NCBI GenBank assembly: GCA_003140235.1
Contig: PLJN01000097.1
Span: 28,080 to 75,315 of the forward strand
Source of the DNA: Acidobacteriaceae bacterium
GTDB taxonomy: Bacteria > Acidobacteriota > Terriglobia > Terriglobales > Acidobacteriaceae
Length of the DNA: 47,236 nt
Reading direction: 5' to 3'
The translations under genes and the position numbers were made by a program. Positions 33,624-35,024 of this stretch are shown here, piece after piece. Position 1 is the first letter of the stretch. The number at the start of each line of letters is the position of its first letter. Under the pieces are notes generated by a model. It did not search any database. It saw only the letters and a list, made by a program, of their open reading frames with translations, and was not told the origin of the DNA.

Positions 33624-34397
33624 TCAGCACGCGCGCGAAACGCGCACGTCCTCAGTAAAGTTGGCCCAGCGCACGACGCCGTTTGAGTCAACCAGGAACT
33701 CCGCGGGACGCGAAATGTCATGCCCGTCGGGTCCGCCGCCGGTATGCAGCAGATGATAGCGGCGTATCACTTCGGTATTGGGATCAGACAGGAGCGAAAA
33801 TGTGTAACCGGCCTTCTTGCACAGGTCGCGCGATTGCTCCGGAGTGTCCACGCTGATGGCGACCGGCCGCACGCCGGCAGCCTGAAACTCGGCCAGATGT
33901 TTTTCGATGCCTCGTAACTCGAGGTTACACATGGGTCACCAGTATCCGCGGTAAAACACCAGCAGAACTGCTTTGGGGCGAGCGGCGGAATTCGAGCCGG
34001 CCAGCAGTTGCGTGAGTGAAACAGTTTGGCCGTTTGTGTCGGCGAGTGCGAACTCGGGCGCCTTCTGTCCGACTTGCGGCGAGGCCGCGGAAGCCGCGGG
34101 AAGAGCGCGCGAAATGTAAAAGACGAAAACCGTGAATGCCAGCAGCAAGACCGAGATGACAGTGAATATCCAGCCGGCAATTTTGCCGCGATACACCTGC
34201 GGCTGCGCTATCGCGCGCCTGAGCCCCGCGATGAAAAAAATCGCGGAGGCCACAAACAGCGCAAGGTTAAGCCAGGGAGCAAATTGCTGTCCAGGAAAGC
34301 TCACAAAGAACAACGCGTTGCTGAGCAAGCCGGCCGCGAGCAGCAAAACACCTGCCCAGAGCGGCCAGTTGCGGCGACGTTGTGTCAAATCTGCCAT
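33624..34397 (-). CDS. Membrane-anchored peroxiredoxin/thioredoxin-fold redoxin with in-frame TGA (putative selenoprotein)
   Basis: Read through one TGA this gives 257 residues. Residues 1-105 hold three membrane segments (WPLWAGVLLLAAGLLSNALF; WLNLALFVASAIFFIAG; IAGWIFTVISVLLLAFTVFV). An AhpC/TSA-type redoxin domain follows from about 115 (PQVGQKAPEFALADTNGQTV). The active site reads VFYRGYW-TGA-PMCNLEL, where the family has Cys at the TGA, so U154-P-M-C157 would be a UxxC motif. After it come PVAISVDTPEQSRDL, FSLLSDPNTEVIRRYHL, AEFLVDSNGVVRWANF. The TGA is the only break and both halves are full length and alike to the family. A nonsense mutation or base error is the alternative. No Sec machinery lies in the window. 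Confidence 0.75.
33907..33932 (-). promoter_or_regulatory. SECIS-like hairpin just after the TGA
   Basis: On the minus strand, 16 bases after TGA (33938-33936), CCTCG-AGTTA-CGAGG (33924-33910) forms a 5-bp stem with G second in the loop. ATG (33932-33930) and CAT (33909-33907) add a lower 3-bp stem with a 5-base bulge (TGTAA) on one side. Loop distance, loop G and a U-bearing bulge agree with bacterial SECIS elements. An alternative fold pairs GTAAC with GTTAC. Folded by hand. Confidence 0.5.
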
Positions 34398-34455: not shown

Positions 34456-34887
34456 TCATTGCACTCTTGCGCTCGGAGAGGTTTCCAGCGTGGCTTTCAC
34501 CAGTTTGTAGAATGACCAAAGATTGTCGCTCTCGCCTTCGCTCAGCCGACGGTGAATTTTCATTGAGGGAAAGATCTTGCCGCCGCCGACGGTGAGCGTG
34601 AGCGTGGCGAACTGTTTGCCGGGATAAGTTTCAATGCCCCATTCGCCGCCGAAGCGCCGGCGCACGACTTCGCCAAAGTAGCTGCCCCACATTTTGCAGA
34701 TTTCGGCGACGTCTTCCGTCGCGGGCCTGCTGCCGGGCATCTCCTGCGCAAGTTGCGCCAGAATGGTCTCGACTTCCATGAGCGAGTTTTCGCTGTAGTC
34801 GAGATTGGCTTTGAACTCGCGCGCCATCACCACTGCTTTTTCCGCGTAAGCGCTGGCCATGGCGGCGACTGAATCGTGTGTATCCAT
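34456..34887 (-). CDS. Conserved hypothetical protein
   Basis: 143 residues from the ATG at 34887 (MDTHDSVAAMASAYAEKAV); an earlier in-frame start at 34923 is less likely. Helical N-terminal half with SLMEVETILAQLAQEMPG, then DVAEICKMWGSYFGEVVRRRFGGEWGIETYPGKQ and LTLTVGGGKIFPSMKIHRRL. The GSYFGEVVRRRxGGEW stretch resembles DUF3806-type proteins; I am not sure of this. No signal peptide. It lies 58 bases upstream of the redoxin gene on the same strand, so the two may be transcribed together. Function unknown. Confidence 0.65.
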   Translation of the reverse strand: MDTHDSVAAMASAYAEKAVVMAREFKANLDYSENSLMEVETILAQLAQEMPGSRPATEDVAEICKMWGSYFGEVVRRRFGGEWGIETYPGKQFATLTLTVGGGKIFPSMKIHRRLSEGESDNLWSFYKLVKATLETSPSARVQ

Positions 34888-35024
34888 CACGTGATATCGC
34901 AGAACAACAAGTGTACACGGCACGGTATTCAGTGTGCCAAAGTCTCTTCCAGCTTGTGTTTGTGATAAGAGATGTCAGCTAGCTGGAAACCCGGGCTCTG
35001 ATCAACGCTGATCAAAGGATCCAT

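Follow-up and report, generated by a model that had tools for sequence, protein, structure and literature searches.

A membrane-anchored UxxC redoxin of Acidobacteriota whose active-site stop codon appears to be read as selenocysteine

Closest described proteins and architecture of the locus

The ResA/TlpA thiol-disulfide oxidoreductases are membrane-anchored, extracytoplasmic proteins with a thioredoxin fold, a single anchor and cysteine in a CxxC-type motif. Among selenoproteins, PrxU (TxxU) is a member of the AhpC-TSA superfamily with selenocysteine (Sec) at the active site, and the Prx-like protein SelL carries UxxU. In the accessible parts of the surveys concerned, Prx-like thiol:disulfide oxidoreductase selenoproteins appear in a list of 2006 (PMC1794560), and those of 2008 and 2026 (PMC2398784, PMC13188914) include UxxC Prx-like families, which bears out the statement of an earlier, sequence-only reading of this DNA that UxxC redoxins are a known bacterial selenoprotein class. 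The Prx-like selenoproteins (PF00578, UxxC), the GOS family ‘Prx-like 1’ and the ‘Redoxin family protein’ (PF08534, UxxC) share with the protein considered here the domain, a Sec in the first position of UxxC and a SECIS-like hairpin downstream; the present family would be set apart from them by three N-terminal helices and by having no cysteine form among the loci read. The protein appears to add a membrane-bound form to this known class. In the open-access literature searched, we found no description of a three-helix, Sec-only form or of a membrane or Acidobacteriota Sec redoxin, and the accessible text of the 2026 review (PMC13188914) contains neither ‘transmembrane’ nor ‘acidobacteri’.

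The window (the whole stretch of DNA analysed, 47,236 nucleotides) holds on its minus strand a frame of 257 codons and a stop (34397..33624) that is interrupted once, by a TGA at 33938-33936. Mechanical ORF calling lists the two halves as separate genes, 33936-34397 (-) of 153 aa and 33624-33932 (-) of 102 aa, which lie in the same frame with that single TGA between them. The TGA is codon 154 and opens a CxxC-type motif (FYRGYW-U-PMC, that is, UxxC). This arrangement, noted in the sequence-only reading, is confirmed, as is its expectation that standard annotation would report two broken genes. The ATG at 33932, directly after the TGA, is a coincidence, because relatives have TTC, TAT, CTT, TCT and other codons at that place. 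A changed genetic code was considered and rejected, because relatives also use TGA to end genes (L025, L027) and the assembly has the Sec machinery.

When translated through the TGA, the protein matches Pfam AhpC-TSA (PF00578) with 109.4 bits over residues 109-244 (33666..34073, minus strand) and Redoxin with 70.2 bits, both above the cut-offs; this PF00578/PF08534 domain and the U-P-M-C motif are those of a Prx-like UxxC thiol:disulfide oxidoreductase. An AlphaFold model built on 19 aligned family members (mean pLDDT 85, below 50 at residues 250-257) consists of three long N-terminal helices and a thioredoxin fold. Hydropathy and AlphaFold agree on predicted membrane helices at residues 11-31 (34305..34367), 37-64 (34206..34289) and 72-97 (34107..34184), all on the minus strand, and so support the three hydrophobic segments that the earlier reading had seen fused to the redoxin. 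Three segments are found in the window copy, and in 26/38 family loci at a strict hydropathy threshold or 34/38 at a looser one. No Pfam family matches the N-terminal helices above its cut-off, and the window protein stays below the cut-off of every NCBIfam model. Arg-rich ends ahead of helix 1 and in the connection of helices 2 and 3 would, by the positive-inside rule, place the redoxin domain outside the cytoplasm.

A Foldseek search of the PDB returned Sulfolobus Bcp4 and mycobacterial AhpE at the top, with about 145 of the 257 residues aligned. In profile alignments to 2cx3, 2ywn and 1xvw, Sec154 faces the S/T of the peroxiredoxin T/SxxC and Cys157 (33927..33929, minus strand), the partner of Sec in the UxxC motif and invariant in the 19-row family alignment, faces its cysteine, the one found in PrxQ and AhpE. 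The TGA had been thought to fall exactly on the active-site cysteine of AhpC/TSA proteins; it aligns instead with the T/S, and Cys157 holds the peroxidatic place. In all 19 rows Arg replaces the Pro of Pxxx(T/S)xxC, and in place of the signature of peroxiredoxins proper, Pxxx(T/S)xx(C/U), the segment reads R-G-Y-W-U-P-M-C, with Arg for Pro and Sec for T/S. Because of these substitutions and alignments the protein is, to judge by its sequence, Prx-like and not a canonical peroxiredoxin. The Sec of PrxU replaces the peroxidatic Cys, whereas here it stands at the T/S position and the Cys is kept; the window protein scores 31.8 bits with the PrxU model (NF040737, cut-off 270). The model for SelL-related redox proteins (NF040769) is matched at E<=0.001 by 19/19 members of the family alignment; the window protein reaches 47.2 bits against its cut-off of 120, and has UxxC in contrast to the UxxU of SelL. 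With the ResA model (NF002854) the score is 51.8 bits against a cut-off of 170, and three helices and Sec take the place of the single anchor and Cys of ResA/TlpA.

The C-terminus of the window copy departs from that of its relatives. The frame reads DVRVSRAC and then a TGA at 33626-33624, and the conserved tail RARAEEMLNAARAIH and its stop follow in another frame (33637-33590, minus strand), so that the frame as assembled ends early. A tail such as RVRARADEMLAAAKxLx closes most aligned relatives; it is out of frame in 0/18 relatives of the 19-row alignment, and the tails of L034, L036 and L056 are shorter and different. The end branch of the window copy measures 0.13, against a median of 0.32, in a tree of 59 redoxin domains whose deep branches are weak and which contains only two Cys rows. 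Because the sequence of the tail has hardly decayed and this branch is short, the change of frame is either a very recent mutation or an assembly error, and the window copy could be damaged by it. The sequence-only reading had missed this change of frame.

Conservation of the TGA and the selenocysteine machinery

In a protein search of 200 relatives, 118 genomes gave a match at E<=1e-12, and exactly one in-frame TGA is present in 19/19 rows at E<1e-55, which come from 18 genomes. A family-profile search of 396 phylum genomes gave matches at E<=1e-25 in 52 genomes, and again 20/20 rows at E<1e-50 have exactly one in-frame TGA; the two genome sets overlap and the window's own genome belongs to both. 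These counts agree with the initial judgement that a chance nonsense mutation at this codon is unlikely. Read base by base, the codon is TGA in 38/38 family loci and a Cys codon in 0/38. The loci, 31 of group A and seven of group B, span ten families of the phylum (numbered groups); not counted are L080 and L089, two divergent TGA rows that also show three hydrophobic segments. In four of the 38 the N-terminus is incomplete or damaged: L031, which meets a contig end, the decayed L058, L070, and L072, the N-terminal part of which was matched as a separate piece. An in-frame TGA at the redox position is thus kept in every homologue of the family read, in answer to the question of Cys or TGA that the sequence-only reading had posed, and no Cys version was found among the family loci read in the search of Acidobacteriota and one contig scan for close relatives. 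Stop-free matches in the 396-genome search are all weaker (E>1e-31); one of them covers just the N-terminal part of the L072 gene, and both of those read (L088, L090) have Cys at this codon. The contig scan named three close relatives, Acidobacteria/Acidobacteriota MAGs with 56-64% identity (L052-L054), and as a fourth, distant match Thalassobacillus, with 31% identity. The decayed membrane redoxin copy L058 (G066:C135) has two TGA and one TAA codons in the matched stretch, and its hairpin is still paired.

The window lies on contig C70 of a metagenome-assembled genome (G000; 4.9 Mb, 204 contigs, 89% complete, 3.45% contamination). The sel genes that the sequence-only reading had proposed to look for are all found in this assembly, which has tRNA-Sec (Rfam model score 73 bits; anticodon UCA according to ARAGORN), selA in two copies, selB and selD, the genes all above curated cut-offs. 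The selD on C84 has its own in-frame TGA near the start (AAGUASKLSP), which we take to be the usual Sec position of SelD; a second selD-like gene has no in-frame TGA (L018, G000:C157:1197-2114, 222.6 bits). The two selA genes (L009, C53:94025; L010, C176:10380) are full-length and clearly different, and a single selA match is the rule in 146/150 selA-bearing genomes, so the pair reflects either contamination, estimated at the above 3.45%, or a real second copy. Across the genomes of the genus (G000-G008), selA is present in 9/9 and selB exceeds its cut-off in 8/9, G006 having only a weaker match.

All 18 genomes with a close match have selA, against 150/200 overall (p = 0.008), and selB is over its cut-off in 17/18, with no selB match in G032 (75% complete). 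With rows counted as listed, irrespective of where each TGA falls, selA occurs in 68/69 genomes that have a row with TGA as the only stop and in 18/39 whose rows are all free of stops (Fisher p = 9e-11); the one genome of the first set that lacks selA, G191 (81% complete), does have selB. This count omits ten of the 118 genomes with a match, namely G017, G025, G031 and G197 with TAA or TAG in their rows, G026, G039, G040, G050 and G143 with no row listed, and G153 (TGA row, selA present), with which the figure becomes 69/70.

Further redoxins of G000 have the same feature. Among its 22 AhpC-TSA matches, six others contain one in-frame TGA (C5:13493, C124:6460, C22:2505, C1:6628 and C103:37445, L110-L114; C120:4112, L056); three of their motifs, TSGU, TGGU and SPTU, have Sec in the peroxidatic place; the others are WUGC, GUIFC and, on C120, that of a second three-helix UxxC copy. 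The genome looks selenoprotein-rich. Around the gene itself, crude ORF clustering of the neighbourhoods of 18 relatives and the window gave no conserved neighbour hinting at a substrate, and nothing but the two redoxin halves forms a cluster across more than three sources. The ORF upstream on the same strand, 34456-34923 (-), of 155 aa, has no Pfam match above cut-off and clusters with no ORF of the 18 neighbourhoods.

A SECIS-like hairpin downstream of the UGA

What could direct the decoding of this UGA? The transcript would form a SECIS-like hairpin, CCUCG-AGUUA-CGAGG (33910..33924, minus strand; loop 33919-33915), which spans nucleotides 15-29 (the U of UGA being 1) and has a 5-bp stem and 16 nt between the UGA and the loop. 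All five pairs form in 31/31 group-A loci. In the 21 loci first aligned, 105/105 cells are paired, two pairs are changed on both sides in 13 cells, a number reached by 0/500 shuffles, and the covariation score of 0.377 was likewise reached by 0/500 (mean 0.209), slid versions of the hairpin scoring 0.06-0.14. Two of the five covariation measures do not exceed the shuffles, namely how many pairs change on both sides (2, reached by 367/500) and how many further pair types occur (4, reached by 466/500). The covariation is largely a single split between CTC-type and TCC-type sequences, and because the changes mostly follow this one split in the family, independent covariation events are few. It involves a substitution in the protein, Ser for Leu ahead of Glu-Leu-Arg, with the Arg codon going from CGA to CGG. 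The Leu codon in the loop (Leu+7) is TTA in 22, TTG in nine and CTN in none of the 31 group-A loci, while 592 other Leu codons near the TGA (21 loci) are TTA in 3.2% and TTG in 16.7%.

Other lineages place a different hairpin at a different distance. In group B, CUGCA/UGCAG is paired in 7/7 loci, 23 nt after the UGA, with the loop AGGUU in six and CGGGC in one. In nine single-helix cousins a GC-rich hairpin lies 25 nt after the UGA, with AGUU in the loop in 7/9 and the closing pair formed in 7/9; this set (group C) comprises nine of 13 periplasmic TGA rows, L046, L048, L049 and L051, with differing sequence after the UGA, being left out. On L046 itself, a 487-codon frame (about 505-1968) links a metallo-beta-lactamase-like domain, identified by eye from its HYHLDH motif, with a TGA-bearing UxxC redoxin (FYEGFWUPYC) and might encode a Sec fusion protein.

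How does the hairpin of the window compare with a described bacterial SECIS? The bSECIS model in the accessible text of PMC13188914 specifies a loop of 3-9 nt, a stem of 4-16 bp, a G in the first two loop positions, a spacing of 16-37 nt and a minimum free energy at or below -7.5 kcal/mol. Measured against that text, the 5-bp stem, the loop AGUUA with its G and the 16-nt spacing all fit, but folded alone the hairpin is weak, at -5.6 to -6.7 kcal/mol for 15-39 nt as against -7.5 in the model; the values by length are -6.1 (29 nt), -6.7 (39 nt) and -9.2 kcal/mol (51 nt). The 51-nt fold of the window is no better than its synonymous shuffles (z = 0.13); the mean z is -0.89 for the group (n=21) and -1.38 for the periplasmic rows (n=13), the single-sequence tests not being significant. 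Rfam with relaxed thresholds gave no match at 33850-34000, to a SECIS family or any other. For this putative signal, the comparison between species is convincing and the folding of single sequences is not.

Competing explanations, proposed mechanism and implications

Taken together, the comparative data strongly support decoding of the UGA as Sec and support the selenoprotein proposed in the earlier reading; the genome appears to encode a membrane-anchored redoxin with an active-site stop codon read as Sec. The TGA might instead be a nonsense mutation in a dying gene, with the out-of-frame tail of the window copy as a second lesion, and damaged copies do exist in the family (L058 with its three stops, L072 with its detached N-terminal part). 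A pseudogene of this kind is nevertheless improbable, since the TGA is common to all 38 loci across the ten families, the window branch is short relative to the median end branch and the hairpin is kept. We also consider it very improbable that the TGA is a real stop, so that the three-helix membrane protein would be truncated and translation from ATG 33932 would give a second, small protein: mechanical calling gives exactly those two ORFs, but the split falls within the redoxin domain, the ATG is replaced by other codons in relatives, the sequences before and after the TGA stay in the same frame in the 38 loci read, and the Sec machinery is present.

A further alternative accepts the selenoprotein and concerns its chemistry. 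Instead of Sec acting first, as in thioredoxin-type UxxC proteins, the protein could work as a peroxidase, with Cys157 attacking the peroxide and Sec154 resolving. Such an order would accord with the peroxiredoxins as nearest folds and with the alignment of Cys157 with the Cys, and of Sec154 with the T/S, of the T/SxxC of PrxQ/BCP and AhpE, yet the Pro of the peroxiredoxin motif is Arg in 19 rows and Sec is normally the more reactive nucleophile. Moreover, three other TGA redoxins of G000 carry Sec in the peroxidatic place (TSGU, TGGU, SPTU), and the membrane redoxin family would therefore have made a different choice. We regard attack by Cys157 as possible and rather doubtful.

The explanation that we propose as a whole, and consider very probable, is a selenoprotein with hairpin-directed UGA decoding, a three-helix inner-membrane anchor and a periplasmic UxxC domain. 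The UGA at 33938-33936 would be decoded as Sec by SelB, tRNA-Sec and the hairpin directly downstream. The product would be held in the inner membrane by its three helices, with the UxxC redoxin domain on the outer (periplasmic) face according to the predicted topology and the positive-inside rule. Sec154 may then attack a disulfide or a peroxide as nucleophile, Cys157 may resolve by way of a selenenylsulfide intermediate, and re-reduction might be provided by a membrane thiol relay, for example a CcdA-like protein of G000 with neighbouring redoxins. A single DsbD/CcdA-like match occurs in the assembly, on C54, adjoining two stop-free AhpC-TSA genes.

What are the implications for the Acidobacteriota? 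Ordinary annotation would split such genes in two, and, given the six further TGA-bearing AhpC-TSA genes of G000, selenium use in the phylum may be under-counted. We lean slightly towards a phylum-wide family of three-helix redoxins that occurs with Sec only, in which the distance of the hairpin varies by lineage (16 and 23 nt, with 25 nt in the single-helix cousins) and the GUU loop is largely kept; if this is true, one and the same SelB signal has been written into different protein stretches. Cys homologues are said, in the accessible text of PMC12013277, to exist for almost all selenoproteins, whereas this membrane redoxin is seen solely as Sec, which suggests that it performs a selenium-requiring job in a common soil phylum.
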